Source: Allotamlana fucoidanivorans
GTDB taxonomy: Bacteria > Bacteroidota > Bacteroidia > Flavobacteriales > Flavobacteriaceae
Direction: 5' to 3'
NCBI RefSeq assembly: GCF_006265225.1
Contig: NZ_VDCS01000006.1
Coordinates: 186,001 to 250,000 of the forward strand
DNA: 64,000 bases
The first letter of the stretch is position 1; the number at the start of each line of letters is the position of its first letter. A program made the translations under genes and the position numbers. This document shows positions 34,088 through 63,563 of this stretch, piece after piece. The notes below the pieces were generated by a model that did no database searches, was not told the origin of the DNA, and worked only from the letters and a program-made list of their open reading frames with translations.

Positions 34088-35369
34088 ATGAAAAAACTTT
34101 TACTATTCTGTTTATTTCTAAGTCATTTTCAGCTTTTTGCTCAAGAGGCTGCCGAACAGGCAGTATCTACAGACACCATTCCTGCTGGAGTACAAGGTTC
34201 TATCAATCCTTTAACAGATAACAGGCCTGTGCACACTGGTGATAATCTTTTAGACGATTCTTTTCCAAGTTCATGGCCGCTTTTTGGCTCGGATGTTAGG
34301 CTACGTAAAAGCAGATTTTATTAGAGATTTTGACTACATAGGAGATAGATATGAATTTGAATTAGGGAGTATTGCTGTTGAAGGTTCTCCTGAAAGGGAA
34401 TTGGGAGGCATCACTACTTTTCATGCCAAACAAACTCGCATTAATTTTGATTTTCGTTCAAAAGCGAAATGGGGTAAAACAGGAAAAGAATTTCCTCTAC
34501 AGGTCTTTTTGGAGTTGGACTGGTTTTTTGATGGAGAATCAAATCGTTTAAACACCCGTTTACGACATGCCTATGGCGTTATTGGTAGATTATTGGTTGG
34601 TAGAACTTGGACCACTTCAGGTGATTTATCTACATTACCAGGGACAATTGATTTTGCAAATGGTGATGCACTTTATGGCGGAAGAACCACCCAAATTAGG
34701 TGGCAGGATAACATAAACAAAAGGTTCTCATATGCTATTGCATTGGAAGATTTTGCACCACAAATTGACAACCCTTTAAATTTTGAAGGCGCCTCTAGAC
34801 CGCTTTGGCCTAATATTGCGGGAATGATAAAAGCTAAAGCGTTAAATGGATCTAGCATTCAACTAGGACTTGATGTTTTCCCTGTGAGTTGGGTTGGACC
34901 GTCTACCGCACCAAACGTAAATAAAACGGGGTATGCCATAACAGTTGGAAGTAGAGTTGTACTCAAAGTAACCGAATATCAAGATGCCTTAGTTTGGGGA
35001 GCTGGCTATGGCGAAGGGCAGGCTCATAAAATTATATCACTTTCATAGGATGGCAAAGCTTCAGGAGCTCTTGGCCCAAATGATTTAACCACATCTCCTG
35101 CTTGGTTTGCTTATGCTGGTTATAATCACTATTGGTCTAAAAAGTTAAACTCAAATATTTCAGCCGCTTGGAGCGGTACTAGCCTAGCAGATTTTCAAGC
35201 AGACGAAACTATTAAAAAAGCAGGATCTGTTCATGCCAACCTTATTTATTTCCCATATAAGATGGTATCTACAGGTATTGAGTATATGTGGGGCGTTAGA
35301 GAAAACAAAAATGGCGTAGAAGGTACAGCATCTCGAGTTCAATTTATGGTAAAGTTTAAATTCAATTAA
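34088..35369 (+). pseudogene. DcaP/OprP-like outer-membrane porin, broken by a frameshift and a stop codon
   Basis: ATG at 34088 starts MKKLLLFCLFLSHFQLFAQ, a signal peptide. The frame runs through FPSSWPLFGSDVR, then shifts near 34292-34300 into the frame coding MLGYVKADFIRDFDY. Adding one more copy of the 8-bp unit GATGTTAG would restore an unbroken reading (GSDVRMLGYVKADF), so one unit of an ancestral tandem pair was probably lost. The second frame then meets an in-frame TAG at 35046-35048. Past it, DGKASGALGPNDLTTSPAWF to VQFMVKFKFN continues in the same frame to TAA at 35369. Restored length would be 429 codons. The beta-barrel pattern fits DcaP-like porins. The amidohydrolase gene starts 5 bp later. 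Confidence 0.85.
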
Positions 35370-35374
35370 TAATT

Positions 35375-45500: not shown

Positions 45501-46649
45501 TATATTCGTATCCTGATTTAATACCGAAACACCTCCTCCCTCTGTGCCAAACAACAGTAAGTTTTTATAGTTAACTATTGAGCTTACAACTTTAAAATTT
45601 AAACCTCTTTGATAAGAATTCTGGGTAATATTTTTAAAATTATTATTGAAGTTATGATGTAAATTTAATCCTCCATAATAAGTCCCCACCCAAATAGTAC
45701 CAACATTATCTTTAAAGAGGGTTTTTATAAAATCATCATTTAACGATTTTGGATTGTTATCATTACTATATAAGGCCTTAATGGATCTTTGTTTATTAAC
45801 AAGATGAATGCCGTGGTACGTAGCCACCCATAAGAGGCCTTTATCATCATAAACTAATTTTCTCGCATTTCTACTTTTTCCAATTAATTCAGTTTCTGAG
45901 AAAAAAGGAAGAATTGCCTTTGTTTGCATACTATATTCAACAATACTATTGGTTTTTGTAGCCAAAAGTATATTTCCATTTTCAGACTCCACAAGGTCAT
46001 TAATATCTAAACCCTCTGTTTGATGTATTAACTTAAATTCAAATAATTTATTTTCAATAGGCTTACATTGATACAAGCCGTTAGAACTACCTATAAAAAT
46101 GTCTCCATTTTTGGTTTCTAATATTGATGACGGTATGTGTATGTTCCCTACCTTTTTAAATACATCATTAACAGCATCATAAAATGAAACACCCCCAAAA
46201 TGGCTTACCAAAACATCTTGATTAGCAAGTACTTTGATCCCCTTAATCATATTATTCCCCAAACCGGATTGGTTAGTATTTAAAAAATATGATTTAAAAC
46301 TATTGGTTTTAGGATTAAATTTATTCAATCCAAAAGAAGTTCCTACCCAGATAAAACCAGAACTATCCTGCTCTATACACTCAATGCCATTATTGCTGAT
46401 AGTGTCAGGGTTATCTTTTTCATGACGATACACTGTAAATTCTGTGCCATCATATTTATTCAGTCCATCTTTCGTACCAATCCAAATCTGACCAAGTTTA
46501 TCTTGATGTATAGCCATAACGGAGTTTTGAGACAATCCATTTGCATCAGTTATATGGTTAAAGTTATAATCTATATATTGGGCATGCCCATAATAGACTG
46601 AACATAAAACAAACAAAAAAACAATATTTTTAAGTTTAAATAGTTTCAA
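42591..46649 (-). CDS. Hybrid two-component system sensor-regulator (HTCS)
   Basis: This 1352-residue protein starts at TTG. No ATG lies between it and an upstream in-frame stop, and the signal peptide (SVYYGHAQ) supports this start. Residues about 30-690 form two-component propeller repeats (GQIWIGTKDGLNKYDG and many IWVGT/LWIGT variants), followed by a Y_Y_Y domain (about 700-775) and one membrane helix (about 785-805). The kinase has NISHEFRTPLT with His838 and NLISNAFKYTP, DDGIGIP and GTGIGLAI. A receiver (from 1102, Asp1151) and an AraC-type helix-turn-helix (about 1250-1352) follow. Such proteins sense a released oligosaccharide in the periplasm and activate PUL promoters. A terminator lies 14 nt before its start codon. 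Confidence 0.96.
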   Translation of the reverse strand: MKLFKLKNIVFLFVLCSVYYGHAQYIDYNFNHITDANGLSQNSVMAIHQDKLGQIWIGTKDGLNKYDGTEFTVYRHEKDNPDTISNNGIECIEQDSSGFIWVGTSFGLNKFNPKTNSFKSYFLNTNQSGLGNNMIKGIKVLANQDVLVSHFGGVSFYDAVNDVFKKVGNIHIPSSILETKNGDIFIGSSNGLYQCKPIENKLFEFKLIHQTEGLDINDLVESENGNILLATKTNSIVEYSMQTKAILPFFSETELIGKSRNARKLVYDDKGLLWVATYHGIHLVNKQRSIKALYSNDNNPKSLNDDFIKTLFKDNVGTIWVGTYYGGLNLHHNFNNNFKNITQNSYQRGLNFKVVSSIVNYKNLLLFGTEGGGVSVLNQDTNIIQHITSNDYKDLKSDNIKSLCVTKDGKLWIGTFDKGVFVYNLKTKQFINNAFPDNLKDFISDAGILKIVQYSDDTILIGTNGKGLIKYNFLKKVFFIYNAKSQPVGLTNSNIKTIWVDTSKNIWLGTLRGLNSITTENEVKTFVYSNSSNFKFEINTIYEDAQKNLWIGTFEDGLFKLTNGVLEYVPLNVGNKPIDGIRCILEGDDKSFWVSTFTQGILKYNYIEKTIEEYFTKKDGLSSNEFNRDAGLRLGDDYYFGGPSGVTIFNEDKIVKNHYAPQVILTDFKINNHSVLVNDTDKVLQTTMSFTKEIELRHNQGNFNLSFSIPNFINSKSNSYKYRLKGLETNWVESSNNIAAYTIQKPGDYVFEVKGINSDGVTNEIPTVLNIKVKPAPWLTWWAYTFYFLIIISIIYYLFKVSKSKTQLKHALELEHLEAEQIKKVNQAKLDFFTNISHEFRTPLTLILGPLQQIINNYKGSSSMFKKLKLIEINGNHLLQLINRLMDFRKYESNQMRLQVAKYNIVSTIKDVYQSFSDYSENQGYQYGFESSSPEISLYFDEKKLEQVFFNLISNAFKYTPSPGKITIQIKEEDDTVIILVKDDGIGIPEVYRDRVFDRFFEITPTDNMSKDIKKGTGIGLAIVKNIIELHTGKISVNPNDGGKGSIFKVELLKGKLHFNAQDFVDDNLILNDVNHYLNQPENTKIKFEENFSSKISSDKKKSLLLVEDNEELRTFMRNILLDDYNVFEAENGKTGFKKAIQEPIDLIVSDVVMPIATGIELCKLIKEDIRTSHIPIILLTAKSDMTQKIEGLESGADDYISKPFNIKELKLRISNNLKTLQQLKSKLNKHEVFSVEDIKMSSLDETLYKKALDIIEQNISNYDFDIPFFCEALGVSKSVLFTKVKAWTDFTPKQFIQHLRLIRAAQLLEKGKANINQVSAKVGFKDQKYFSKSFKAKFGKSPREYAQSFMA

Positions 46650-46711: not shown

Positions 46712-47839
46712 TTATTCTAAATTTAAAATCTCACTACCTGCTAATAAAAAAGCGCCAGTACCAAAGTTTTGCCAGCTATCTGCCGATGCTGGCTCTGGAA
46801 AAGCTCCTATATCTTGTACCCAACCCACACGACCATCGTCATGCTGACAAGCTTTTATAGCATTCCAAGCTTTAAGAACAGCAGGAGTATGTTTTTTATC
46901 AATCAATCCATTATTTATTCCCCAAGCCAACGCAAATGTGTGGAAACCACTACCACTTACTTCACCATGATCATAAGATTCTGGACATAATAAACTTGTA
47001 CGCCATAGCCCATCTTCAGGTTGTATTTTCAACATGGTTTCAGATAATTCTTTAAATAATTGCTCATAGAAAGGACGGTGCTCATAATCAGCTGGCATAT
47101 CATCAAGTATTAATGCTAAGCCAGCAATTACCCAACCGTTACCTCTGGACCAAAATACTTTTTTACCGTTTGGCTCTTTAGTAGGATTATCATTGCCTTC
47201 CCAAACAAAACGCATATCTCTAGCGAATAGTTGCTCTTCTTTATCATACAATTGATTATAGGTTTGCATATAAAACTTATGCATCTCATCTAAATACTTA
47301 GGTTGCTTGGTATGCTTTGCATATAAGTTTAACACTGGAGGCGCCATAAATAATGCATCACACCACCACCATAAAATGGTTTGCCCCATATCATTCTTTT
47401 TATTCCCTGCTTTCCATACATCATCTTCATACAAATGTGCATCTAAGAAGTTTTTAGTGGGTTCTAAATCAACAAAATTCTTTCTACCACCATTCATATC
47501 AATATATAAATAGCTGTATGAAATGGCAACATCATCGGCATGATGTAAACGTTTATACGTTTGCCAATTATTCCAATAACCTTGATTTTTAAGAGCTGCC
47601 ATGTATATCATATCCTTTGTAGTTTTGTGGGCACGTGCCACACCTGTATAATAAGCACCTTCTGTCCAATCTGTAGGAGAAATAGCAAAAATTGGATGCG
47701 CTTCTTGCCACTCTAAAGCCTTAATCATAGAGGCCTTTACTTCCTCTTTATTTATAGCCTGTACTTCTGCTACTTTTTGTGCAGTGGAACAGTTGAACAA
47801 TAGCATAACCGTTATTAGTGTTACAATGGATTTACTCAT
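46712..47839 (-). CDS. GH105-type unsaturated uronyl hydrolase, lipoprotein
   Basis: This 375-residue protein has a lipoprotein signal (LLFNC, Cys17). The (alpha/alpha)6 barrel shows [28 protein letters not shown] (Asp102/103), [12 protein letters not shown] (Asp161) and [17 protein letters not shown]. These are hallmarks of the GH88/GH105 group, where two Asp residues hydrate the double bond of a 4,5-unsaturated uronic acid. Such residues are the direct products of ulvan lyases, so this enzyme links lyase action to oligosaccharide breakdown. It is the last gene of an operon: 7 bp after GH3 and followed by a terminator. Confidence 0.92.
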
Positions 47840-47846
47840 GATGTTT

Positions 47847-50117
47847 TTATTTTACAAGTTTAAATTTAGTTTCTAAATAGTCCTTTGAAGAAGTACCAAG
47901 CATAACGGTGTAATCTCCAGCTTCTAGTCCTTTTTGCATATCCAGACGGGTGAACTCGAGCATTTGAGGTGTAATTTTAAATGAAACCGTTTTACTTTCT
48001 CCTGCATCAAATTCTATCTTTTGGAATCCTTTGAGCTCTTTATCTGGTCTAGTAACAGACCCTATTTCGTCTTTAATATACATTTGAACCACTTCTTTGG
48101 CTTTCATACTACCGTTATTAGTAACCTTCACACTTACCTCCAGTTCTGTATCTGGTGTAATTTCTCCCTTAGAAATTGAAATGTCTGAATATTCAAAATC
48201 GCCATAGTTCAAACCATGACCAAATGGAAATAATGGTCCCTTTCCTAAGAATAAATATTCCTTCTTATAATTGATTTCCTTCATACTATAATGAAATGGA
48301 ATTTGCCCAATAGACCTTGGAATTGTTACAGGTGATTTCCCCGATGGCGACACCTCACCAAAAATAATTCTTGCGGTAGATTCGTCTCCAAACTCACTTA
48401 AATCCCAAGTATCTAGAATAGCATCAGCATGTTCCGCAATGGCATTAATAGAAAGCGTTCTTCTATGCTTTAATACCACAATAACTGGCCTACCTAAAGC
48501 TTTTATACGCTCAATCAATTCGTCTTGTGGCCCTACAGGATCTATGGTTGCTCTATCACCTAAGGCATGGGTAAAGAAAGCCTCTTTTGATGTAAACTCA
48601 TCACCTCCCATAAATAAAACTACAACATTAGAGCTTCTAGCAATGGATACCAATTTATCTAAGGCTCTTCCATCTCTTGGCAACAATTTTGGTTCACCAC
48701 CTGTTTCATCTGTTAAATGAAACCCTTTTTCTGCTACAAATTTAATATTGTCGCCTGCTACAGATTCAAACATAGCTTTAGTATTCTCTGTTACAAGAGG
48801 ACCTAAAAGTGCAATTTTAGTGGTTTTTTTAGCATCAAGTGGCAACGTGTTAGCTTCGTTTTTTAGAAGAATAATAGACTCTAAATCTGATTCTTTCGCT
48901 AATTCTAAAGACGATTCTGCTCTGTTTCCTTTCTCTACATCTTCTATATTAATATAAGGATTATCAAAAAGTCCTAAAATAAATTTTGTTCTTAAAACAC
49001 GTCTTACGGATCTATCAATTAGTTTTTCAAGTTCTGGATTTTTCTTTACCATTTCCGGAAGATAGGCATAAGAATCCTCCGCATATAAATCGATATCTAT
49101 TCCTGCCTCCAATCCCATTTGTGCGGCATCCTCAGGAGTTTCGGCTACATTCATAAAATAATGCAAACGGGCAATATCGTTAGAATCAGAAACCACATAT
49201 CCTTCAAACCCCCATTGGTCTCTTAAAACACCGGTGAGCAACTCTGGATTACCATGTGATGCCACGCCATTTATATCACCATGCGATGCCATTATACCTA
49301 AAGTTTTAGCTTCCTTAACCGCGGCTTCAAAAGGTGGGTATATTTCATCTATTAATGTTCTTGGAGAAATTTCGATAGCTGCAAAGTTAGAGCCACCTAA
49401 CACTTGTCCGTAAGCTGCAAAATGTTTTGTCACTGCACCAATATGCGTACCATTACCTAACCCTTCGTAATTACCTTGCACACCAATAACAGCATTTTTA
49501 ACCATTTGTGTGGTTAAATAGGTGTCTTCACCAAAGGCCTCGCTCATACGTCCAAAACGCGGGTCCCGCACTAAATCAGCTTCCGGTGAATGGCACATAT
49601 GCATACCGCGTAAGCGTGCTTCACGGCCAACAACATCCCATTGTCTTTGCACCAATTCTGGGTTAAATGATGCTGCCGAGGTCATAGGGCGACCAAATTT
49701 TGTACAACCTGTTGCGTCAACACCATTGTACGACTCTGTGACAAATAACGCAGGAATACCCCAACGGTTATGTTCAATAATATATTTTTGAAGTTCATTG
49801 TTCAATTTTGCAGCCGTAATCGCATCAACGTGCTCTCCTGGATTTTTTATACCCGCAATGCCCAATTTTAACTTTTTAATAACCTTTTCGGAAAGTTTTA
49901 ATTTTCCGTTTTCATCGTGTTTTACTCCAATATTGGCGTGGAAAATTCGCATTTGCGCCACTTTTTCTTCTAACGAAAGTAATGGCAATAAAGCCTCTAC
50001 GCGTTCTTCAATGGATAACGAGGCGTCTTTATAATCTTTTAACGAAGCCTCTTTGCTGCCACATGCATTAAAAAGTAACCCGACTACCACAAGGGCTAAA
50101 AAACATAATTTCTTCAT
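47847..50117 (-). CDS. GH3 beta-glycosidase, xylosidase or glucosidase, lipoprotein
   Basis: This 756-residue protein has a lipoprotein signal (LFNAC, Cys19). The N-terminal TIM-barrel shows [37 protein letters not shown] and VTKHFAAYG. The nucleophile Asp311 is in GYVVSDSND. The alpha/beta sandwich ([27 protein letters not shown]) and a FnIII-like C-terminal domain follow ([19 protein letters not shown]). GH3 enzymes release terminal beta-linked sugars. Xylose is the likely leaving group here because a GH43 gene sits next to it, but glucose or other sugars are possible. It is in an operon: 16 bp after GH43 and 7 bp before GH105. Confidence 0.9.
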
Positions 50118-51502: not shown

Positions 51503-52468
51503 TTAGTTTGTTCCACAAAAGATATCCATAATTTTAGTTACCACTGTGGCCTCTTCAACAGAACATGGGTTTTGATTTTTTCCCAAAAAATACCCCACCA
51601 CTTCCTCTATCATAGGCTGCTGTACATGCCTTGGATTTTCAAACTTAAAAAATTCACTTTTCGCTGTAGTTTCAACCCTTATCTCTTCATTGTAAAATGA
51701 AAACGTAATGGTACCTTTTTCTCCTTTAATGATACATTTGTCATTATCTTCTGGAGCATTAAAATTCCAACTTCCTTTAAAGTCAACACCATTTTTAAAT
51801 TCCAATTCACCCTTAACCAAATCTTTTGAAGCTGCGTTACCTAACATGTTTCCTTTTTTAACTTTGGCAACTTCACCAAAATAATAACACATTAAATCTA
51901 TTTGGTGCGGTGCAATATCATGAAAGTACCCTCCTCCTGAAACTTCAGGATTTAATCTCCAATTTTCATCTGTTTTGGCAATTATATTGGCGTCTTGAGA
52001 TTGTGCAATATCAATTTCTGCTGAAAATACTTTACCGATTACATTAGCATCTAACAACTCTTTGACCTTAATGAATAAAGGTAAATTTCTACGATAATGA
52101 GCCACGGTAACTTTTACATTACTACGGTTCAATGCATCTAAAAGGTCGTCAGCTTCCTTACTATTAAGCACCATGGGTTTTTCTAAATATATGTTCTTTC
52201 CAGCTTTAATAGCCTGTTTCGCATAATTTAAATGTGAAGAAGGTGGTGTTGCAATATAAACGGCATTCACCTTTTTATCATTAATTAATTCAGAAGCACT
52301 TGTAGTATAATTTGGTACTTTATGCCGTTTGGCAAAATCTTTTACTTTTTCTTCATTTCGTCTCATTACGGCGGTCAAAGCAGAATTTTCTACTTTTTGA
52401 AATGCCGGACCACTTTTTACTTCGGCAACATCACCACAGCCAATAATACCCCAATTAATTAGTTTCAT
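51503..52468 (-). CDS. Cytosolic Gfo/Idh/MocA-family oxidoreductase
   Basis: This 321-residue protein has no signal peptide. The Rossmann opening NWGIIGCGDVAEVKSGPAF is followed by AVYIATPPSSHLNYA and IYLEKPMVLNSKEAD with the usual EKP. The C-terminal half includes GGYFHDIAPHQIDL, where His is the likely catalytic residue. These NAD(P)-dependent enzymes oxidise or reduce hydroxyls on sugars and related polyols. It is the first gene of the four-gene operon leading to GH105, with operator site 9 upstream. It could process a monomer taken up from the periplasm. It is not Tat-exported, unlike the two at 56536 and 57724. Confidence 0.88.
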   Translation of the reverse strand: MKLINWGIIGCGDVAEVKSGPAFQKVENSALTAVMRRNEEKVKDFAKRHKVPNYTTSASELINDKKVNAVYIATPPSSHLNYAKQAIKAGKNIYLEKPMVLNSKEADDLLDALNRSNVKVTVAHYRRNLPLFIKVKELLDANVIGKVFSAEIDIAQSQDANIIAKTDENWRLNPEVSGGGYFHDIAPHQIDLMCYYFGEVAKVKKGNMLGNAASKDLVKGELEFKNGVDFKGSWNFNAPEDNDKCIIKGEKGTITFSFYNEEIRVETTAKSEFFKFENPRHVQQPMIEEVVGYFLGKNQNPCSVEEATVVTKIMDIFCGTN

Positions 52469-52737: not shown

Positions 52738-55700
52738 CTAAAAAGAATTAATCTTCAACTGTATGATATGTTTTCCTGGAGCGAGTCTTATAGATTCAAA
52801 TGCAGACGGCACCTTTTCTCCATTATGAATAAGGTCTTTACCATCTAAGCCATTCAAGCTAAACTCTGCCATCATGTTTCCTGGTATTTCAATTTGATAG
52901 GTTTGAAGCCTAGGACCATTATGTTGATATGAAGCTTTAATTGGACCTCTTACGGTAGGCACTTCAATTTCACTCGATTTTAACTTACTCATTTGAGGCT
53001 TTATAGTAGCAATACCAAATCCGGGAGTTTTAGGTTTAATTCCCCATAGTCCTCTTGGTATTGCATTTGCTGGCACAGCTCCCCAAGCGTGATTCCAATC
53101 TAAATTTACTTTATAATCGTAATCCCAAGCCTCTAAAGTAATTGTTGACCCTACTCTAATCATATTATACCAACTTCTTTTTGCTTTGCTCGCTAATAAC
53201 TCTAAAGCATAGTCAGCCTCTCCTGCATTATAAAGACCGTCTATTAAAAACTGGGCGCCATAAACACTACAGGCCATTCCTCTTGATTTCACATAATCTA
53301 CAACAGATTGATAATGCTCTTGAGGCACTAATCCAAAGGCTAATGGCATCATATTGGCATGTAAAGATGCATGATCTGTACCTATACCATCTACATAAAC
53401 ACCTCTTTCTTTATCAAACATTTGTTCATTAACTGCCTTTTTTGCTTTAATAGCTCTATATTCAAAATCTAATGCTTCTTCCGTCTTTCCTAAAATTTTT
53501 GCAAACTCTGCCATAATTTTCATATTCTCGTAAAAGAAGGCATTAATTACGGTACTGTATGGCTTAAAGACGAATCCGTCACGTTCTCCTTTGGTTTTAC
53601 TACCTGCAAAATTTGCACCTGGCCAATCCACAATATCTGTTAATGGTTTTTTATAGCCTTCAGGAAAACCAAGTTTTTTCATAAATGCAGCGTCTACTTT
53701 TGTAGAGGTAATCAAACCGTCTTCATTTGATAATTCATATAGCGATTTATGCTTTAATGACTCATAATAACGCTCTACCAATTCAGTGTTACCAGTATAC
53801 ATGTAATCTGCATAAATTAACAAAGGCACATGCTGTTGCCACTCTGTTGGCCACGTAGGGTTTTTCATGAAGTATTCAATGGTGCGTCTGGCCATAGCAT
53901 ACTCTCTATCAGCGGTATAATGACTCAATTGATTTAAATAAGCGTCTGCCTCATAAGGAATACGCTCTCTGTCACCATCAACGTACAATCCGTTAAACGT
54001 TGTCGCTTTTATTGAGTATTTGGATAAATCCCAAACTTGGTTCAAAATATCATTGTTACTTTTAAAACTACTTGCATTTTCATCCCAATAGGTATGGAAA
54101 GCCAATTGTGTAAAATCATCAGCAGCAAGTGTTTCTTGAGCGCCCTCCAACTCAGCATATCTGAAAGGAACAAGCGGAGGAAAACCTTTTGGCAATGGCA
54201 CAGCTTTGTTAGCTCTTGTATTTCGCTCGTCTTCATGAACTTTAATCTGATATGTTGTTTGGCCTGGTTTTACATCAACCTTAATTTCTTGATACCGAAT
54301 ATTGCTTTTTGCCGGAGGTGTTCTATTCACATTGCCCTGATCATCAATCATTTCACCAACTCTTACAGTAAGCGTATGTGGTGTTTTCGCGTTATAAGTA
54401 AACTCCATGGTAGCAAAGGCTGCCTTACCAAAATCCATGAAATACACGGCATCGCGTTTCTCAAATTTTTGAGGTTTTATTTTAGATGTTTCAAATTTAT
54501 TCTCAGTAGAAATAATATATGAATCACTCTTTCCTGTTGTGAATTGTTGTGCTTCAGCATAATCAACAAGTCTGTTTTCTTCTTCCCAAATTCGAACCTT
54601 CCAAAAATATGTTTTTCCAATTTCTAATGGAGCGCCTTCATACTCTACATTTGTAGATTGTGTTGAGGCCACTCTTCCGCTATCCCAAATATCACCATTA
54701 TTATTATCGATGCTCTTTTTGTTTGAAGCGACTAAAATTTGATAAGCACCTTGATATTTAGAGCCTAATGGCACCGTCCAACCAAATTCAGGCTTTAAAT
54801 CAAAAATCTCAACATCTTCACCTGGTTCTCTTATAAGTTCAACCGTTAAATCGGTTGGTGCCGCTCTAAATTCGTTACTATTTTTCTTTATTAATTCTTC
54901 AAGTTTAGCACGAAGATTATCAGCTATAACTTTGTACTTTTTCTTTCCTATTAAATTCTTAACCTCTAACGGATCTTTCTTAAGGTTGTAAAGCTCTTCG
55001 ATGGTTTTATCATTCACATACCTAAAATACTTCCATTCTTCTGTACGCACCCCTTCACTTGGCGGAATATTTTTAAAATCCCAAAGGTGTTCTATCAAAA
55101 TAGTATCTCTATCTATAGAATTGGTTTCTTGCTTTGTAATTGGCAGTAAACTTTTACCCTGCCAAGACTGTGGAGCTTTTACGCCTGCTATATCAGCAAT
55201 AGTATAAGGTACATCAATATTAAGTACCATATCTGTAAAATCTTGATGCTTGTTTACTCTTGGATCAAAAACAATTAATGGTACACGAATAGAGTTGTCA
55301 TACATTAACCATTTGCCAGCCATTTGACGCTCTCCTAAAAAATACCCATTATCACCCATAAGAATAATAACTGTATTTTTATCTAATCCTTTTTCTTTTA
55401 ATTTCTCACGTATTTTTGTGATTTCTTTATCAACACCAGCAATCATTCTGAAATAGCCCTTTAAACTATGTTGGTATTTCTCAGGTGTATCATAACGCCA
55501 TGTCCAGCGTAATCTATTAAACCCATCTCGTACTGCCTTTGGTTGCGCCAAAAAGTATTTTTCGTCGGCCAATTTAGGTTCAGGAATGGTTTCATCCTCA
55601 AGCATGCTATTCATTTCTTCTTGCCAGAAGTATTGCTCAACGGCACTATCGTGGGCATGCGGTGCACTAAAGCTAAGCGACAAACAAAAAGGTTTATCAT

Positions 55701-56265
55701 TGGTTGCATTTTTATCAATAAAATCAAGTGCTTTTTGTCCTGTATAACGTGTTAAATGAACTGTATCATTATCAATTGTTTTGTAATAATATCCTCTTCT
55801 GTCTTTGTATCGGTTGTTTCTATCGTAATCTTCGTATTCATCAAATTGCTTATCTAAACCGTCATATCTTACACCGTATTTTCCAAAAAAACCTGTATAG
55901 TATCCGTTGTTTTTAAGTAAGGTTGGATAAGATTGTGCCATATATTCCTCGCGAACATTACCCGTTTGAAAATTAAAATTATGAGCGCGTTCATGTAAAC
56001 CTGTCCACAATGAGGCTCTACTTGCCGCACAAATTGGCGTTGTTACAATAGCATTATGGAAATAGGTTCCTGCATTGGCCAAATTATCCATCTCTGGAGT
56101 TTGTACAAATTTATTTCCCGCATAACCTATGGCATCAAACCGTTGATCATCAGTTAAAATAAAAATGATATTGGGTTTTTCTGAATTACTTCCTTGCTGC
56201 GCCTGAATAACATTCAAACTGTATACAGCAGTTAATAGCACTAATAAAAAACTGTTTTTAAGCAT
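52738..56265 (-). CDS. Bifunctional S1 sulfatase fused to GH78 alpha-L-rhamnosidase
   Basis: This 1175-residue protein has a signal peptide ending IQAQ (23). Residues about 30-465 are an S1 sulfatase: [25 protein letters not shown] at Cys79 with the Ala form of the C-x-P/A-x-R motif, and [19 protein letters not shown]. From about 475 a GH78 enzyme follows: FNIII-like domain ([13 protein letters not shown]), beta-sandwich, [12 protein letters not shown] at 763, and [18 protein letters not shown]. Sulfatase and rhamnosidase fusions of this kind are known from ulvan loci. One chain could remove sulfate from rhamnose and then the sugar. It is monocistronic, with operator site 10 and a terminator. 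Confidence 0.93.
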
Positions 56266-56355: not shown

Positions 56356-56370
56356 TCCTGCTCTGTCCCG
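56356..56370 (-). promoter_or_regulatory. Operator site 10 before the sulfatase/GH78 fusion gene
   Basis: TCCTG-CTCTG-TCCCG on the plus strand, about 90 bp before the ATG at 56265. It is less perfect in the second half than the others. Confidence 0.6.
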
Positions 56371-56535: not shown

Positions 56536-57720
56536 TTAAATGGTTTGATTCCATTTTACAATTTCATTATTGACCATGGCGTCAATTCCCATTTGTACGC
56601 AAAAGGCCGCTTTTGCTCCCGATATTACGTTTGACAAGGGTTGTTTGTTATCTACAATGGCCTGTCTGAAATCTAACAAAGCTTGTTTACTTGGATTAAG
56701 ATGCTCAACGTTAATTGGATATCCTTTTTTTGGATTGTATTGCGCAGTAGCTCCACTTACACCATCAACATCACCCATTACCTCACGTTTTTCTCCTTCA
56801 GGAAAAAACCAGGCGTTCTTTGTATCAATAATGATGGTTCCTTTATCTCCAATTACCTTAATTTCATAACCGTCTTTTGCATTACTAGTTAAACAGGTAA
56901 ATTTAGCTGTAACACCACTGGCATAGCGGTAAGTAAGATGTACATTATCAAATGTTTCTCTGCCGTCTTTCCAATAGTCAACTCCGCCAACGCCCATTAC
57001 TTTTTCAGGCACTTCATCAAGTACCCAATTGGTAAAGTCAATTTGATGTGAACATAATTCAGCCGTTAATCCTCCTGAGAACTCCCGATACATTCTCCAA
57101 TTTACGGCACGTTCATATTCAGGTTGAGGCACAGGTCTTCTCCAATTACCATGTCTGTTCCATTGACATTCAAAGGCACTAATCTTACCTACTTTGCCTT
57201 GTTTAATTAACTCAACTACATGTGTATACAATCTTGAGCTGTGGTATTGATGTCCAGTTTGAACTATTTGCGAAGATGCATTTGCCTTATTCAACAAATT
57301 ATTAATCCCATCGTAGCCTTTAGCTAAGGTTTTTTCACAATATACATGTTTCCCAGCATCTAATGCATCAATGGCTATTTTGGAGTGGGTACTAAATGGC
57401 GTAGCTATTATAACAGCGTCAATATCCTTATTATCTAATAACTTTCTGTAATCATTGTAACCAACTGGAGTTGTTTTGGCTTTTGCCAACCCCTGCTCCA
57501 ACCGAAAAGGCAAAATATCACAAGAGGCAATAACATTAATATTGTCAATTGAATTAATTATGGACGTTAATCCTCCTCCTCTATCACCGGTACCAATAAC
57601 ACCAATATTTAAGGTGTTACTACTATTGAATTTAGATAATACATTTCCGTATAGCAATGATGAACTTGCTAACGCCGCAGAGGCCATTCCTGTTTTTTTA
57701 ATAAATACGCGTCTTTTCAA
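56536..57720 (-). CDS. Tat-exported Gfo/Idh/MocA oxidoreductase
   Basis: TTG at 57720 begins KRRVFIKKTGMASAALASSS, a twin-arginine signal. No ATG precedes it, because an in-frame TAA (the upstream gene's stop) is two codons earlier, giving TAA-AAA-TTG. The 394-residue protein has NIGVIGTGDRGGGL (Rossmann), AVIIATPFSTHSKIA, CEKTLAKGYDG and a conserved TAELCSHQIDFTNW. NAD(P) binding by an exported enzyme suits Tat, which moves folded proteins with cofactor. In 3-keto-glycoside pathways a similar exported dehydrogenase oxidises a sugar hydroxyl. It follows another Gfo-type gene and a double DUF1080 gene, so oxidation of an oligosaccharide is likely (inference). Confidence 0.85.
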   Translation of the reverse strand: MKRRVFIKKTGMASAALASSSLLYGNVLSKFNSSNTLNIGVIGTGDRGGGLTSIINSIDNINVIASCDILPFRLEQGLAKAKTTPVGYNDYRKLLDNKDIDAVIIATPFSTHSKIAIDALDAGKHVYCEKTLAKGYDGINNLLNKANASSQIVQTGHQYHSSRLYTHVVELIKQGKVGKISAFECQWNRHGNWRRPVPQPEYERAVNWRMYREFSGGLTAELCSHQIDFTNWVLDEVPEKVMGVGGVDYWKDGRETFDNVHLTYRYASGVTAKFTCLTSNAKDGYEIKVIGDKGTIIIDTKNAWFFPEGEKREVMGDVDGVSGATAQYNPKKGYPINVEHLNPSKQALLDFRQAIVDNKQPLSNVISGAKAAFCVQMGIDAMVNNEIVKWNQTI

Positions 57721-57723
57721 TTT

Positions 57724-59067
57724 TTATAATTTAGGTTCCCAACCAGGTTCGTATGTTCTTTTCCATAGTGCCATAGCTTCTCTATCAAATATTGTACCTG
57801 AATTCTCATCTACGTCAAATCCTTTATCTATTCTATACGCAATATTTGCATAATGTGTAAGCATTTGTGATTTTGCTCCAATTTCAATTGGAGAAGTCAA
57901 TTCTTCTTTACCTCTAATTCCGTTCAAGAAGTTCACCGTATGACGTGTTGACAAATCACCGCCACCGCCTAAGGCTACACCGCCTTCTGCTTTACCCGAC
58001 TTCATCTCCTCAACAAGTTTTCCTTTTCTATCAAAACGCTCAAAGCCGTCACGATCAATCATTACAGAACCTTCTGTTCCCATTATTAGCGTTCCTCTTC
58101 CTCTTCCATATTTTTTGTAAGCATTTCTGCTTACTCCATCCCATTGAATGATTTTACCATTACCAAATGTATAGGTGGCCAACATGTCGTCATACATTTC
58201 CCAACCATCATCTTTAAAATGATTCTTTCCGGCTAAAACATCTACATATTTAGGATAATTTACATCTAATGCCCAGCGTGCAATATCTAATTCATGTGTA
58301 GCATTATTCCCCATTTCTGCAGTACCAAAATCCCAACCATACCAGTGCCAGTTATAATTCCATGTATCATGAGTATAGTCTTTTCTTGGTGACGGCCCTT
58401 GGAATAAGTCCCAGTTTAAACCTTGCGGTGGGTCAGCCTTCACTGGATTTGGAACCTTTGGCCTGCCATTCGCGTAAAACCCAATGGCTTTATATGCATC
58501 ACCAAGTATACCGTCATGAATATCTTTGATGATTTTAATACTTTGCGGTGAGGAGCGTTGTTGGTTACCCATTTGAACCACTTTATTGTACTTCTTTTGC
58601 GCTGTAACCACCAATTGGTTTTCCCAGGCGTTGTGACTGCATGGTTTTTCTAAATACACATGCTTTCCTGCTTGCATGGCCATAATGGCCCCAGGGGTGT
58701 GCCAGTGATCTGGAGTAGCCATAAAAACAGCATCAACATTCTTATCATCCAGAATCTTTTTGATATCCTCTTCAAGTTTTGGCTTATAGCTTATTTTTTT
58801 TCCAACTTTTTCGGCTGCTTTATGCATTTGACTTTGCATCACATCACACAAATACAACAAACGCGCGTTATTGTCTTTTGCAACTATACCATTGATAAAT
58901 GCACCGTATCGTCGTCCTAAGCCTTGAATAGCTACATTAATTCTATCATTTGCTCCTATGATATTATTATAACTTTGTGCAGACATAGCGTTGATTCCAC
59001 TACTTAAAGTGATTCCTGCAGTAGCCAGCGTAGTTTTCTTTAAAAAATCTCTTCTTTTATTTGCCAT
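57724..59067 (-). CDS. Tat-exported Gfo/Idh/MocA oxidoreductase
   Basis: ATG at 59067 gives MANKRRDFLKKTTLATAG, a twin-arginine signal. The 447-residue protein has the Rossmann motif NVAIQGLGRRYGAF, AVFMATPDHWHTPGAIMA and YLEKPCSHNAWEN. The C-terminal half shows MGNNATHELDIARWAL and RHTVNFLNGIRGKEE. This is the periplasmic Gfo/Idh/MocA type common in Bacteroidota and Planctomycetes. Nearest relatives may include GH109-like or 3-ketoglycoside dehydrogenases, and only structure or assay can tell. It is 2 bp after the DUF1080 gene and 3 bp before the second oxidoreductase, so all three are co-translated. Confidence 0.88.
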   Translation of the reverse strand: MANKRRDFLKKTTLATAGITLSSGINAMSAQSYNNIIGANDRINVAIQGLGRRYGAFINGIVAKDNNARLLYLCDVMQSQMHKAAEKVGKKISYKPKLEEDIKKILDDKNVDAVFMATPDHWHTPGAIMAMQAGKHVYLEKPCSHNAWENQLVVTAQKKYNKVVQMGNQQRSSPQSIKIIKDIHDGILGDAYKAIGFYANGRPKVPNPVKADPPQGLNWDLFQGPSPRKDYTHDTWNYNWHWYGWDFGTAEMGNNATHELDIARWALDVNYPKYVDVLAGKNHFKDDGWEMYDDMLATYTFGNGKIIQWDGVSRNAYKKYGRGRGTLIMGTEGSVMIDRDGFERFDRKGKLVEEMKSGKAEGGVALGGGGDLSTRHTVNFLNGIRGKEELTSPIEIGAKSQMLTHYANIAYRIDKGFDVDENSGTIFDREAMALWKRTYEPGWEPKL

Positions 59068-59069
59068 CT

Positions 59070-60470
59070 TTATTTCTTTTTATTTTTTGGAACACGAATT
59101 TTTATATTTCTGAAAAACACTTGATCACCGTGATCCTGCAATAAAATTTGGCCTTTTTCTAAAACTCCAAATTTAGGCCATTTTGCATACTTACTTTCTG
59201 AAACTAATGTTAAAAATGCTTCACTTCCTCTTTCATATTCTAAAACCTTAACTCCATTTATCCAGTGTTCAACATGATTATTGATAGACTTTATATAAGC
59301 CGTATTCCACTCACCAACAGGATTTACAGGTTTACTTGGATCGGCCTTTATCAAATCATATAGTGAACATACAGTTCTGCTCCCTTCGTGAGATCCTAAT
59401 TTAGCATCTTCATGCAAGTCATCATCCAAAATTTGATACTCTAAGCCAATTGAAGACCCAGGCCCCTTATTAAGTTCTGTGTCTACATAATATTTTATAC
59501 CACTATTTGCTCCTGGTGTTAGCTTAAAATCAACTTGTAGTTCAAAATTACTATATTCTTGCGTTGTTACAATATCTCCGCCAGCTGTTGATTCTGCGCC
59601 ACCAGTTTCTGCTACGATTAGCTCTCCATTTATAATGGACCAACCTTCCTCTGGGAACTTGTCTAATTTAGCACCACGCCACCCACTGGTTGTTTTACCA
59701 TCCCAAAGCATTTGCCAACCCTCCTTTTTTTCTTGAAAAGTTAACTTGTTTTTAGTTACCACAGGTTCTAACGGTGATTTTCTAGAATATTTTGATACAT
59801 TTTCTGTTAAGATTTTAGCCTCTTTCCACATCACTGTTTTACCAAGTCTTTCTTTATTTTTGCCAATGGAATGCACTTGTAAGCCTATAAATCCACTTGC
59901 TGTTTTATCATCAATCAAATAAGCTGCTGGCACATTATTTATCCAAGTTTTAATAGTATCACCAATAGCCTCAACACGATAGTGATTCCATTCATTTTGT
60001 TTAAATGCAGCCTGTGCACTAGTGTTGTTTTCTAAAGGATTTAACCATTTGCGTCTGCCTTCATCATAAATACCACCGCTCCAGGCACGTTTTGAAGGAT
60101 CTATTTCAATTTGATACCCATGCACTCTTCCATTTTGATAATATGGCAAGCTATTACTTCTTATTTGAATACCCGAATTCATCACAGGGTCTACTTTAAA
60201 GGCTATCTCAAGAATAAAATCATCGTAACGTTTATTGGTGGTTAAAAATGTATTAGGAGTATCGGCGGCAGTGGTTCCTGTAATAACACCGTTAACAACT
60301 TCATAAGATGCTTTACCGCCTAAAATGGTCCAACCATCCAGATTGTCTTCATTAATTAAATTCACCCAAGGAACTGGATCATTCTTTTCTTTACAAGAGT
60401 AAATGTTCCCCATATTGAAAACAGTAAGAAAACATAATGCAATAGATTTTAATAGTTTCATTTTTATCAT
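59070..60470 (-). CDS. Double DUF1080 (3-keto-glycoside hydrolase/lyase-like) lipoprotein
   Basis: This protein has 466 residues from ATG at 60470, or 463 from ATG at 60461, the more usual-looking start. A probable lipoprotein signal ends NIYSC. Two jelly-roll DUF1080 domains follow: about 30-215 (NLINEDNLDGWTILGGKASYEVVNG, GIQIRSNSLPYYQNGRVHGYQIEID) and about 240-466 (QMLWDGKTTSGWRGAKLD, GANSGIKYYVD, GSSIGLEYQILDDDLH). DUF1080 (PF06439) members cleave 3-keto-disaccharides by elimination or hydrolysis. Two linked copies may mean that one domain binds while the other cleaves, or that each serves a different linkage. Operator site 11 lies about 151 bp upstream. It is the first gene of the cassette. 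Confidence 0.85.
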   Translation of the reverse strand: MIKMKLLKSIALCFLTVFNMGNIYSCKEKNDPVPWVNLINEDNLDGWTILGGKASYEVVNGVITGTTAADTPNTFLTTNKRYDDFILEIAFKVDPVMNSGIQIRSNSLPYYQNGRVHGYQIEIDPSKRAWSGGIYDEGRRKWLNPLENNTSAQAAFKQNEWNHYRVEAIGDTIKTWINNVPAAYLIDDKTASGFIGLQVHSIGKNKERLGKTVMWKEAKILTENVSKYSRKSPLEPVVTKNKLTFQEKKEGWQMLWDGKTTSGWRGAKLDKFPEEGWSIINGELIVAETGGAESTAGGDIVTTQEYSNFELQVDFKLTPGANSGIKYYVDTELNKGPGSSIGLEYQILDDDLHEDAKLGSHEGSRTVCSLYDLIKADPSKPVNPVGEWNTAYIKSINNHVEHWINGVKVLEYERGSEAFLTLVSESKYAKWPKFGVLEKGQILLQDHGDQVFFRNIKIRVPKNKKK

Positions 60471-60621: not shown

Positions 60622-60636
60622 TCCTGTGCCGTACTG
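60622..60636 (-). promoter_or_regulatory. Operator site 11 before the DUF1080/oxidoreductase operon
   Basis: TCCTG-TGCCG-TACTG on the plus strand, 151 bp before the ATG at 60470. A -7-like TAACTTTA is on the minus strand at 60598-60605, 16 nt below it. Confidence 0.6.
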
Positions 60637-60751: not shown

Positions 60752-61804
60752 CTAAGGAAGTTCCCTTAGCTCCACAGTAAACTGTTCAAATGTAACATCT
60801 CTGTTTCTTATAACTAATGTATCCTTGACAGCATGTGTTTCATTATTAACAGCATCTGTATACGAATAATCTAGATATATTACATCGCGCTTCTCTCCTC
60901 CCCATTCATCACCATTTTCAACAAATCGTCCTGAACCAGAAACATTATAAGCATCGTCTCCAAAACTATTTACAGTACACGTTTCGTCACTATTAAATAC
61001 CAACTCAATATTTACATCTCCTGGGCTTGAAAGCTCACCTCTTCGCACACGGTTTGCATATCTTACATTTGACCTTCCACTGGTCATTAATTCAGTAACC
61101 TCATCGTCTACAACAAATTCTGATCTGTAGGTTGAGGTAGTCACCTCTCCTGAATTGTTTGTCATAACATCTTCCCCTCGGCGTAAGTATTTGCCTTGAT
61201 ACTTGTTCATGAATTTTATACCAAAAAGTGTGTAATCTTTAGGTGCGGGATTCCAATCTTCATCCTTTATTTTTATTGGATTAGACACAATAGGTACTCC
61301 TGTAAGTAATGAATCTAGACCCTCATAATCAACAATTTTTAAAGGAATGACATAATGCGTATTATTCTTGGTAGCATAAGCAAGCGGATCATCAAAGAAA
61401 GCTTCTTCTAACTGAATAGGAATACGACCATTTATTGATCCTGCAGGTATAATAACAGGGCTAGGCTTTTCTATGGTATAATATGACGCTGGCAATATCT
61501 GAACCGTTACCGAGTCTACTCCTAAGGTATTGGCGTCAATTAATTCTGGAGCCAACTCAAAATATACTTTTCGGTCAGAATTATTTTCAAAAACTCCAGA
61601 CATTACAACACCTATTTCAAACTTACCTTGGTTATCATTATCATTAAAACCCAAATCATACTTACCTTGAATTAATGTTCTTGCAGGTCTTTGATATGGA
61701 AAATATACTGAAGTTGAACCAAAATCAGCGACTTCAGTATCTTGATTCTCACAAGCCATTAGACCAAAGGCTAAGGCTATTATTACAACTAATTTTATTT
61801 TCAT
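60752..61804 (-). CDS. Surface lipoprotein with DUF1735/BT_3987-like domain
   Basis: This 350-residue protein has a lipoprotein signal (GLMAC, Cys18). The N-terminal half has the DUF1735-type pattern (VYFPYQRPARTLIQGKYDLG, VYFELAPELIDANTLG, IPAGSINGRIPIQLEE, YVIPLKIVDYEG). The C-terminal half has beta-strands (NKYQGKYLRRGEDVMTN, TCTVNSFGDDAYNVSGSGRF, KDTLVIRNRDVTFEQFTVEL) as in DUF5627-like proteins. Lipoproteins of this kind next to SusD often bind the target glycan at the cell surface. It follows SusD by 40 bp. No enzyme signature is present. Confidence 0.8.
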   Translation of the reverse strand: MKIKLVVIIALAFGLMACENQDTEVADFGSTSVYFPYQRPARTLIQGKYDLGFNDNDNQGKFEIGVVMSGVFENNSDRKVYFELAPELIDANTLGVDSVTVQILPASYYTIEKPSPVIIPAGSINGRIPIQLEEAFFDDPLAYATKNNTHYVIPLKIVDYEGLDSLLTGVPIVSNPIKIKDEDWNPAPKDYTLFGIKFMNKYQGKYLRRGEDVMTNNSGEVTTSTYRSEFVVDDEVTELMTSGRSNVRYANRVRRGELSSPGDVNIELVFNSDETCTVNSFGDDAYNVSGSGRFVENGDEWGGEKRDVIYLDYSYTDAVNNETHAVKDTLVIRNRDVTFEQFTVELRELP

Positions 61805-61844: not shown

Positions 61845-63563
61845 CTACCAACCTGAATTTTGTTCAAGGGCTGGAAACTTTAATGTTTCATCATTTGGAA
61901 TTGGCATATATGTAGCAAAGTCAGGATATTTTCTTTCTTCAACTTGGTCATAACTATAATTTGTTCCATTAATGTTAACACCTTCAGCTGATTCAATCAA
62001 AGACAAGCCCCATCTTCTTAAGTCCCAGAATCTATGACCTTCAAAACTTAGTTCCAAGCGTCGTTCGTTTCTAATGAGTTCTCGCATATCTTGTTTTGTA
62101 GTAATAGACGCTAAGTAAGCATCTGGTTGAGCAAGTCCCGCTCTTTGTCTTATTGCTCCAATCACTTCACGCGCGGTCATACCATTAATTTGTTGGTCTG
62201 GCCCACCCACTTCATTAGCTGCCTCGGCAAATATTAAAAATAATTCTGTATATCGAAAAAACACATCGTAGTGTCTTTGCGTTGTTTCAGACCCATCATC
62301 ATTTAATCTTACATCTGGACGAAGTAATTTTTTGAGGTAATACCCTGTTGTTGTAGAAAATTCAGGAATAGAATCTCGTCTGTCAATTCCGCCTCCAACT
62401 CCGGTATTAATTGTTCCTCCTCCAAAATTATCACCGTTTAGTACAACAAACTTTGCTAACCTTGGGTCTCTATTTGTATACGGATCTTGCGGATTGTATC
62501 CATTCGCTTCAGTTGCAGGAAATCCACTTTGCATTGGGAAAGCATCTACCAAATTTTGTGTTGGATTAATTTCGCCACTACCATTTACCGAAGGTGGGAA
62601 CACACGTTTTTCAATAGTTGCATTTGGATTTTGCTCTGAGCCTCTCCAAATCATTTCGCCACCAGTATAACCATCACTATCTAAATAAAACTCAAGACCA
62701 TTAGGTACTAAACCTGAAACTCCTCCAATAGTATTTAATACTTCACTTGCATCGGTTGCTGCCATATTATAATACCCTTGATCATTTAAAAATGCCGGAC
62801 TTGCTGCAAAAAGCGCTAAACGGGCTTTTAAAGCACTTACTATTTTACCAGAAATACGTAAATTAATGGCACTACCATTGGCAACTTTATATTTATTAAA
62901 ATCATAATCTTCGTAAATAGGATTTACATCGGATTGATTATCTGAATAAACTGTTGGTAATAAAGTAAGTGCCTCATCAAAATCTGCCATGATAGCTTCA
63001 ACCGTATCTTCAAAAGATAAGCGTGGTAAATTAAAATCGCCATCAGACTCAATGAATCCTTTTATATAAGGCACGCCTAGTAATTGTCCAGAAGTTCCAT
63101 AACCAGCATGCGCCTGTAGTATGTAAAAGTGATGTAATGCTCTCAATGCCAACGCCTCTCCTTTCATACGCATATAAAACATTTCATTAATCTCCTCATC
63201 TGTATTCCATACAATCTCACCAGCGTTAATAATTTGTAAAAATTTGTTTACCCATAAAACGCTTTCATAGTTCCTCCAACGTGATGTAGGGTTAAACTGA
63301 GCACTTAACTCTCCTTTAGCTATACGCTTAAAATCATTATCTAATTGATTATTAACCGCATCATCTGTGGCCGCTTCATCAAACGTAAACTGATCTATTA
63401 AACGTGAATAGCCCTGCAATAACACACCTTCTGCTGCTGCTGGTGTTTCACCAACAAACTCAAAGTCCAATCTATTTTCATCAATAGGATCTAAGAAATC
63501 TTCACAGCTAACAACGCCAGCAAATACTGACATTATAAACATATATTTTATTAAATTTTTCAT
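61845..63563 (-). CDS. susD-like: SusD/RagB-family surface glycan-binding lipoprotein
   Basis: This 572-residue protein has a lipoprotein signal (GVVSC, Cys20) and then EDFLDP, typical of SusD. Helical repeats follow (MRMKGEALALRALHHFYILQAHAGYG with TPR-like pattern). The C-terminus has RNERRLELSFEGHRFWDLRRWG, a SusD hallmark. It forms the lid over the SusC channel and binds the imported oligosaccharide. It is 20 bp after SusC and 40 bp before the next lipoprotein gene. The glycan is inferred from context. Confidence 0.95.
   Translation of the reverse strand: MKNLIKYMFIMSVFAGVVSCEDFLDPIDENRLDFEFVGETPAAAEGVLLQGYSRLIDQFTFDEAATDDAVNNQLDNDFKRIAKGELSAQFNPTSRWRNYESVLWVNKFLQIINAGEIVWNTDEEINEMFYMRMKGEALALRALHHFYILQAHAGYGTSGQLLGVPYIKGFIESDGDFNLPRLSFEDTVEAIMADFDEALTLLPTVYSDNQSDVNPIYEDYDFNKYKVANGSAINLRISGKIVSALKARLALFAASPAFLNDQGYYNMAATDASEVLNTIGGVSGLVPNGLEFYLDSDGYTGGEMIWRGSEQNPNATIEKRVFPPSVNGSGEINPTQNLVDAFPMQSGFPATEANGYNPQDPYTNRDPRLAKFVVLNGDNFGGGTINTGVGGGIDRRDSIPEFSTTTGYYLKKLLRPDVRLNDDGSETTQRHYDVFFRYTELFLIFAEAANEVGGPDQQINGMTAREVIGAIRQRAGLAQPDAYLASITTKQDMRELIRNERRLELSFEGHRFWDLRRWGLSLIESAEGVNINGTNYSYDQVEERKYPDFATYMPIPNDETLKFPALEQNSGW

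Follow-up and report, generated by a model that had tools for sequence, protein, structure and literature searches.

A conserved tandem-DUF1080 and Gfo/Idh/MocA cassette in flavobacterial ulvan loci: a probable 3-keto-glycoside module with uronic acid as a possible target

The cell walls of fast-growing green seaweed contain ulvan as a major polysaccharide. In the flavobacterium Allotamlana fucoidanivorans, a stretch of 64,000 nucleotides (assembly GCF_006265225.1, contig NZ_VDCS01000006.1, positions 186,001 to 250,000; hereafter the window) contains an ulvan-type locus in which a compact three-gene cassette encodes a tandem DUF1080 putative lipoprotein and two Gfo/Idh/MocA oxidoreductases, designated Gfo1 and Gfo2 (Table 1). 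A first-pass annotation of this DNA had described three closely packed genes for a double DUF1080 lipoprotein and two proteins exported by twin-arginine translocation (Tat). The open reading frames confirm this packing, with all three genes on the minus strand and separated by 2 bp (59068-59069) and 3 bp (57721-57723), and the Pfam domains and predicted export motifs agree with the protein assignments. PF06439 was matched twice in the DUF1080 protein (289 bits in total, against a cut-off of 26.8), and both Gfo1 and Gfo2 were found to carry the N- and C-terminal GFO_IDH_MocA domains. Tat-like motifs (RRDFLKK and RRVFIKK) are present at the N-termini of the two Gfo proteins, and a loose RR.[FL][IL] pattern recurs within the first 45 residues of 80 of 83 Gfo1 and 38 of 45 Gfo2 sequences. 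The lipobox of the DUF1080 protein, IYSC, is plausible, if slightly atypical, and a lipobox-like stretch was detected with a loose pattern in 71 of 83 DUF1080 sequences.

Table 1. Cassette genes, neighbouring ulvan-locus genes and operator-like repeats in the window.
Feature	Position in window	Strand	Remarks
Tandem DUF1080 putative lipoprotein (PF06439, 3-keto-disaccharide hydrolase family), cassette gene 1	59070-60470	-	466 aa
Gfo1, Gfo/Idh/MocA oxidoreductase with Tat-like motif, probable 3-dehydrogenase	57724-59067	-	447 aa
Gfo2, Gfo/Idh/MocA oxidoreductase with Tat-like motif, possible reductase or second dehydrogenase	56536-57720	-	394 aa, TTG start
SusE-like protein (DUF5627, BT_3987-like N)	60752-61804	-	Pfam; homologue upstream of cassette in 17 loci
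SusD-like glycan-binding protein	61845-63563	-	Pfam
Sulfatase-GH78 fusion, probable homologue of Formosa P36 (S1_25-GH78)	52738-56265	-	Domains; architecture compared by description (PMC8511951)
PL28 ulvan lyase, locus marker	23101-25089	-	PF22826, 376 bits
640-aa protein beside PL28	21044-22966	-	Matches neither Pfam nor PDB
GH88/GH105-type unsaturated uronyl hydrolase	46712-47839	-	PF07470
GH3 enzyme, possibly P34_GH3 type	47847-50117	-	Profile search
Hybrid two-component sensor kinase, candidate operator regulator	42591-46649	-	Profile search
AraC-family regulator, rival candidate for operator sites	20156-21049	+	Pfam
Operator-like direct repeat TCCTG-N5-TCCTG upstream of cassette	60622-60636	+	1 mismatch
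Operator-like direct repeat upstream of sulfatase-GH78 fusion	56356-56370	+	1 mismatch

Conservation of the cassette extends over many flavobacterial ulvan loci. A genome collection was searched with the DUF1080 protein, and the best 80 of 291 relatives were analysed as two sets, the 30 closest and 50 others. Gfo1 was found to adjoin the DUF1080 gene (gap of at most 20 bp) in all 80 loci; Gfo2 is present in 43, comprising 25 of the 30 closest loci and 18 of the 50 others. In 28 of the 30 closest loci, one or more of 18 ulvan-locus proteins of the window has a match of 40% identity or more within 10 kb; at 60% or more, the same test retains 27 of the closest loci and none of the others. At the lower threshold, 15 of the 50 other loci also match, always and only through the rhamnosidase half of the sulfatase-GH78 fusion. 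The ulvan label of each locus was assigned from neighbour similarity and subsequently checked with these thresholds; for L005 it rests on one 72%-identical sulfatase, and for L033 on a 44%-identical PL28 and a 39%-identical sensor. The common gene order is SusC-SusD-SusC-SusD-SusE-DUF1080-Gfo1-Gfo2-sulfatase/GH78, with five Sus genes in 17 loci, and in 20 of the 30 closest loci the cassette has a homologue of the fusion next to it (tblastn). An alternative placement was observed in L024, L025, L030, L031 and L032, where the cassette sits elsewhere in the ulvan cluster, adjoining or close to a 640-aa-protein homologue and no more than 10 kb from PL28. Furthermore, a SASA-type carbohydrate esterase gene, absent from the window, separates the cassette from the fusion in 13 of the 30 closest loci (L013:13913-15331 and homologues), a recurrence that hints at acetylated or otherwise esterified ulvan.

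Phylogenetic analysis placed the ulvan-type DUF1080 proteins, together with those of L014 and L034, in one group of 31 rows (support 100/99). While the DUF1080 proteins of the ulvan loci form one lineage, and the Gfo2 proteins nearly so (24 of 25, with L033 apart), the 29 ulvan-labelled Gfo1 proteins (from 28 loci plus the window) split into two lineages of 17 and 12 members, the smaller consisting of L006-L013, L020, L021, L027 and L033. The Gfo1 and Gfo2 trees are quick trees with SH-aLRT support only, and the former carries a long-branch warning for C_paralog. The dehydrogenase Gfo1 seems to have been swapped while the rest of the cassette stayed stable, and two Gfo1 lineages combined with one DUF1080 lineage fit selection for function better than inheritance as one block. 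As a side observation, L014:10001-12739, on a contig binned as a gammaproteobacterial metagenome-assembled genome, encodes DUF1080 and Gfo1 proteins at ~78% and ~77% identity and represents either horizontal transfer or a binning error.

The association with ulvan degradation was also evident at the genome level. In a family sample of 397 genomes, the window's own genome counted, PL28 was found in 19. A DUF1080 copy of at least 73% identity occurs in 12 of the 397, and 11 of these 12 carry PL28 (Fisher p 1.1e-15); in 10 of the 11, the copy lies within 36 kb of PL28. For less similar copies no association was found, PL28 being present in 4 of 68 genomes versus 15 of 329 (p 0.55). In addition, 12 of the 19 PL28 genomes carry a tandem-DUF1080 gene no more than 60 kb from PL28, a count for which random placement gave a mean of 1.4 and a maximum of 8. 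Among these 12 are G145 and G175, with copies of 56% and 67% identity; a short second PL28 fragment in G153 was not considered. The window's own genome carries a second PL28 gene on another contig (G000:C60:17124-17891).

The cassette is apparently co-regulated with the ulvan locus. A direct repeat, TCCTG-N5-TCCTG, which replaced an earlier and too narrow operator pattern, was found with at most two mismatches at 11 intergenic places of the window, all on the plus strand, in 7,244 intergenic bases, and at 21 intragenic places, in genes that cover about eight times as much DNA; exact matches number four between genes and none within them. The site that had been numbered 11 is indeed present upstream of the cassette, its number being close to, though not exactly, the one obtained here: it is counted as the tenth distinct site, because the eleventh match (60632) overlaps it. 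Across genomes, a correctly oriented repeat with at most one mismatch precedes the DUF1080 gene by no more than 320 bp in 16 of the 29 closest loci that could be tested, compared with one locus among the 50 non-ulvan ones and 8 among 400 random stretches. This recurrence supports the regulon membership proposed in the first-pass annotation. The 29 are the 30 closest loci minus L032, which has no upstream sequence, with L014 and L034 included. The hybrid sensor or the AraC-family regulator is a candidate for binding the repeat; a further operator-like site, at 20040-20054, occupies the gap separating the AraC regulator from a divergently oriented GH78 gene, a position that would allow autoregulation. 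The cassette lies together with an ulvan lyase and other carbohydrate-active enzymes, is conserved across ulvan loci and has a predicted operator-like site in common with other locus genes. Chance insertion or passive hitchhiking as the sole explanation is rejected on the strength of the PL28 association, the operator recurrence and the proximity to PL28.

The partnership of DUF1080 and Gfo proteins in 3-keto-glycoside cleavage, on which the first-pass annotation relied, is supported at the family level. For such a route, the BT2157-BT2160 pathway reportedly provides a detailed four-enzyme scheme. In Bacteroides thetaiotaomicron, BT2158 is described as a periplasmic glycoside 3-dehydrogenase (PMC11300592) and BT2157 as a 3-ketotrehalose hydrolase with DUF1080 (PMC9007349). 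Single mutants of BT2157 and BT2158 grew normally on raffinose-family sugars (PMC11501099), which limits how far this model pathway is needed. The window cassette has the DUF1080/PF06439 domain of this pathway type as well as Gfo partners in the same predicted operon with predicted export motifs, and it resembles the model in being predicted to be exported and in its relation to glycans. It differs in joining two DUF1080 domains in one protein, in having three genes, in sitting in a polysaccharide utilisation locus (PUL) and in having, by genomic analogy, a probable uronide substrate. The lactose 3-dehydrogenase LacABC of Caulobacter, which is not known to be a Gfo protein, differs in being membrane-bound and in having lactose as its substrate. 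For LacABC, C3 oxidation in the periplasm followed by a DUF1080 protein has been proposed (PMC9007349).

Sequence and structure comparisons are consistent with this chemistry. The best PDB sequence matches of Gfo1 are 8tdf and 8tdh, the Alistipes glucoside-3-dehydrogenase AL3 (108 and 106 bits, the former over residues 39-275), and 8tdh also heads the fold search (Z 34.4, root-mean-square deviation 3.0, 368 residues aligned). Two residues invariant among Gfo1 proteins, K141 and H258 (36-row alignment), align with the same residues of AL3. Identity to AL3 in the structural alignment is 25-26%, and the substrate class is not transferable. In Gfo2, K130 and H225 are invariant (32-row alignment), and the motif EKT replaces the usual EKP in all 45 sequences. 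The entry 8tdi, named 'P2B11 Glucuronide-3-dehydrogenase', was found as a sequence match of Gfo2 (66 bits) and as a fold match of both Gfo proteins. The tandem DUF1080 protein matches 4jqt over residues 35-459 (535 bits), a solved tandem-DUF1080 'putative glycosyl hydrolase' with the same two-domain architecture, whose entry name assigns no specific function. Domain 2 (residues ~243-460) matches, among others, 4jqt, 3hbk (272 bits) and, at 128-138 bits, 8v31, 8rr2 and 8tda, of which 8rr2 (128 bits) is named a 3-keto-disaccharide hydrolase domain-containing protein; domain 1 has a strong match to 4jqt only. Since both domains are well conserved, with 79 of 191 columns in domain 1 and 108 of 218 in domain 2 conserved at 97.5% or more, domain 1 is probably not a relic. 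The conserved positions include H117, E122 and D124 in domain 1 and D349, D350 and H353 in domain 2. Altogether, the 3-keto route is a well-supported inference from the protein families involved. Because their scores lie below curated thresholds, the cassette proteins are not members of the characterised BT2158 family, though they may work like it.

With high probability, the cassette is a 3-keto-glycoside module that works in ulvan use. More specifically, and with modest confidence, it is read here as an exported, probably redox-neutral, glycosidic-bond-cleaving 3-keto module of the ulvan regulon, for which a uronic acid is the best-fitting target; that the residue attacked is a uronic acid is by itself an even call. 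In the proposed scheme, Gfo1 would oxidise the C3 hydroxyl of the sugar at the non-reducing end, using NAD(P) that it brings along on Tat export. Glucose-fructose oxidoreductase is a precedent for Tat export with bound cofactor, and export of the folded enzyme in this state would permit function without a periplasmic NAD pool. DUF1080 domain 2 would then break the bond of the 3-keto sugar by elimination or hydrolysis, and domain 1 would hydrate the 3-keto-glycal or position the substrate. Finally, the free 3-keto sugar would be re-reduced by Gfo2, or by Gfo1 where Gfo2 is missing, with regeneration of the cofactor. Re-reduction by Gfo2 is the least certain step, because Gfo2 was found in only part of the closest loci and in fewer than half of the others. 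The candidate target is glucuronic acid (GlcA) or iduronic acid (IdoA) in the GlcA/IdoA-rhamnose-3-sulfate (Rha3S) that the neighbouring sulfatase-GH78 fusion would release, or a beta-1,2-linked GlcA branch; both C5 epimers could be accepted, because the attack would take place at C3, C2 and C1.

The Formosa fusion type (P36) releases GlcA/IdoA-Rha3S, which GH3, or a dehydratase together with GH105, subsequently opens, and ulvan also bears beta-1,2-GlcA branches (PMC8511951). The proposed oxidative route would be an exit parallel to these known GH3 and dehydratase/GH105 routes. As in the Formosa agariphila ulvan pathway, whose described enzymes include P36 (S1_25-GH78), P34_GH3, P29_PDnc and P33_GH105 (PMC8511951), the window contains a sulfatase-GH78 fusion, PL28, GH39, a GH105-type enzyme and GH3.

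Genomic context of the sister cassettes points first to uronic-acid residues, whereas the first-pass annotation had suggested rhamnosyl or xylosyl disaccharides. A UxuA gene lies within 11 kb of a tandem-DUF1080 gene in 16 of 70 genomes whose copies are mostly of the non-ulvan type, compared with 0.44 expected for a single genome size of 4.2 Mb. The 11-kb limit was set after the positions had been seen; at 10 kb the count, taken by eye, is 15 of 70. UxuA rows down to 357 bits were used, with weaker or fragmentary rows and the ulvan-type copy of G338 left out. Among the 50 non-ulvan loci, with neighbour clusters named from one scanned representative each, 24 have a glucuronate marker: UxuA in 15, GH115 in 9, the TRAP-transporter protein DctP in 5, and UxaC and MIOX (myo-inositol oxygenase) in 4 each. 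A 2-keto-3-deoxy-6-phosphogluconate (KDPG) aldolase gene is near the cassette in 4 of the 50, and a homologue of the GH78 half in 14-15. GH115 is present in 30 of the 70 genomes; inspection by eye placed it no further than 13.1 kb from the DUF1080 gene in 6 of them. RhaA, taken as a control for the rhamnose hypothesis, was found in none of the 70 and is uninformative. In Maribacter sp. MAR_2009_72, an arabinogalactan-responsive PUL was reported to express a 'GH109' Gfo protein of unknown function together with a mannonate dehydratase (PMC11036162). Taken with ulvan itself, many of the sister loci suggest as common denominator a uronic acid, possibly under rhamnose.

The surroundings of the cassette justify the label of an ulvan-type locus given in the first-pass annotation. 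The window contains PL28, PLH30 beta-trefoil domains, a BNR_4 protein, GH39, GH88/105, GH78, GH106, GH43, GH3, sulfatases and the sulfatase-GH78 fusion, in addition to SusE-like and SusD proteins. The reported adjacency to SusCD was also verified, with SusE and SusD upstream within the window and, beyond its edge, a TonB-dependent (SusC-like) receptor followed by another SusD and then another TonB-dependent receptor. The AraC regulator excepted, the ulvan cluster lies on the minus strand; it is broken up at 34284-36982 by two plus-strand genes, one with a DcaP-like match below cut-off and one for an amidohydrolase. A third Gfo/Idh/MocA protein, with no visible signal motif, is encoded at 51503-52468 and overlaps a GH43 gene by 14 bp; four other ulvan-type loci have a homologue of it close to the cassette. 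The 640-aa protein was considered as a P29_PDnc-type dehydratase on account of its position only, and this assignment could not be confirmed by Pfam or PDB.

Several findings weigh against the interpretation of the cassette as a uronic-acid-directed 3-keto module of ulvan use. On the protein side, the fold ranking of Gfo1 is a near tie within about one Z unit (9m3d, 7xr9, 6z3c, 3q2k and the other AL3 entry), although the near-tied rows, with the exception of the second AL3 entry, have alignments of only 326-340 residues (17-20% identity). The fold matches of Gfo2 are tied across the superfamily, at Z 31.2-35.0 over 50 listed rows, with no distinctive partner. Against NF058561 (BT_2158 glycoside 3-dehydrogenase), which has a cut-off of 750 bits, Gfo1 scores 145 and Gfo2 101, and for the DUF1080 protein there was no match among the NCBIfam models. 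No Gfo2 turned up in 5 of the 30 closest loci and in 32 of the 50 others, of which two stop inside Gfo1 at a contig end, nor in 6 of the 19 PL28 genomes at E 1e-60, so that Gfo2 is not indispensable. The link to ulvan is also incomplete: 7 of the 19 PL28 genomes lack any tandem-DUF1080 gene closer than 60 kb to PL28, the 73% copy of G071 lies 1.87 Mb from PL28, G115 has a 74% copy with no PL28, and L014 and L034, both among the 30 closest, have no ulvan neighbours in genomes devoid of PL28. With regard to substrate, clustering shows no glucuronate marker and no GH78 in 25 of the 50 non-ulvan loci; these include all 11 Arenibacter loci, where the cassette lies beside a methionine sulfoxide reductase gene. 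Moreover, enzymes for the proposed substrate are already encoded in the window (GH105, GH3 and possibly a dehydratase), which would make an oxidative route redundant.

Among the alternatives, the same 3-keto chemistry could be directed at a neutral residue, either a desulfated L-rhamnose at the non-reducing end or xylose or xylose-2-sulfate. The adjacent sulfatase-GH78 fusion would expose the C3 hydroxyl of rhamnose (PMC8511951), homologues of its GH78 half recur beside the non-ulvan cassettes, as noted above, and the closest characterised relative of Gfo1 is a glucoside dehydrogenase. This possibility is rather unlikely; the locus already has three proteins with a GH78 six-hairpin domain and three GH106 proteins, and the recurrent metabolic partners of the sister cassettes are glucuronate genes. 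A different division of labour is improbable, namely that the Gfo proteins are NAD-dependent glycoside hydrolases acting alone, in the manner of GH109 and the oxidoreductive sulfoquinovosidases, with the DUF1080 protein serving mainly as a binding lipoprotein. Such a role would be in keeping with the fold of Gfo2, which ties with the NAD-dependent glycoside hydrolases 8qc5 and 8qc2 (Z 34.6 and 34.5), with the divergence of DUF1080 domain 1, with the GH109 label that pipelines such as dbCAN may give such proteins, and with the Gfo-superfamily 'GH109' reported from Maribacter (PMC11036162). GH109 identity itself is rejected on the absence of the loop GGHGG, which occurs in none of the 83 Gfo1 and 45 Gfo2 sequences. 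The strict adjacency of DUF1080 and Gfo1 also argues against hydrolases acting alone, as does the number of conserved columns in both DUF1080 domains, which exceeds that expected of a passive binding module.

Slightly less probable still is a generic module for other glycosides that has travelled with ulvan loci by shared descent and has no role in ulvan use. Tandem-DUF1080 genes are common in genomes with no PL28 (65 of the 80 genomes with a match at E 1e-190), and two relatives of the cassette occur in the window's own genome. The first, a second complete cassette with 65-68% identity per gene, lies ~164 kb before the window (L001:7038-10998, contig C107). It probably belongs to another sulfated-glycan cluster, because it is flanked by two sulfatase genes on one side and by phosphomannose-isomerase-like, GH36-like and GH3 genes on the other. 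The second is a two-gene version (L002:9208-11938, contig C12), with tandem DUF1080 and Gfo1-like proteins ~52% and ~45% identical to those of the window, among housekeeping genes such as those for YidC, CTP synthase and GTP cyclohydrolase. Against passive descent stand the recurrence of the operator-like repeat upstream of the closest cassettes, the two placements in ulvan loci (in the interval between SusE and sulfatase-GH78, or near PL28 and the 640-aa protein) and the pairing of two Gfo1 lineages with one DUF1080 lineage, which together suggest a selected linkage.

Enzymatic ulvan breakdown as described in PMC8511951 relies on lyases, hydrolases, sulfatases and one dehydratase. In the main text of that study the words 'oxidoreductase' and 'dehydrogenase' do not occur, and the sole match to 'duf' is an author name. 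No description linking ulvan with DUF1080 or a 3-keto-disaccharide hydrolase was found in the open-access literature, which leaves most subscription journals outside; among the open-access matches listed for ulvan and MocA, none concerns such genes by title, and the part of PMC9549685 available contains nothing on them. The first-pass annotation, which knew of no established use of the 3-keto route for ulvan, is in line with this search of open-access sources.

A conserved oxidative module in ulvan loci would add a further way to break the glycosidic bonds of ulvan. As a broader and more tentative proposal, flavobacteria may cleave uronic-acid glycosides (GlcA/IdoA in ulvan and perhaps rhamnosyl-glucuronides, for example of arabinogalactan, in the sister loci) by a compact, redox-closed periplasmic 3-keto-uronide pathway, in which the tandem DUF1080 protein would unite the lyase and hydratase steps and attack at C3, C2 and C1 would bypass the problem of C5 epimers. 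Such a module would name candidate enzymes for the Gfo ('GH109') and DUF1080 annotations in marine PULs, and would suggest a substrate class, the uronides, for tandem-DUF1080 proteins, of which 4jqt is a solved structure.

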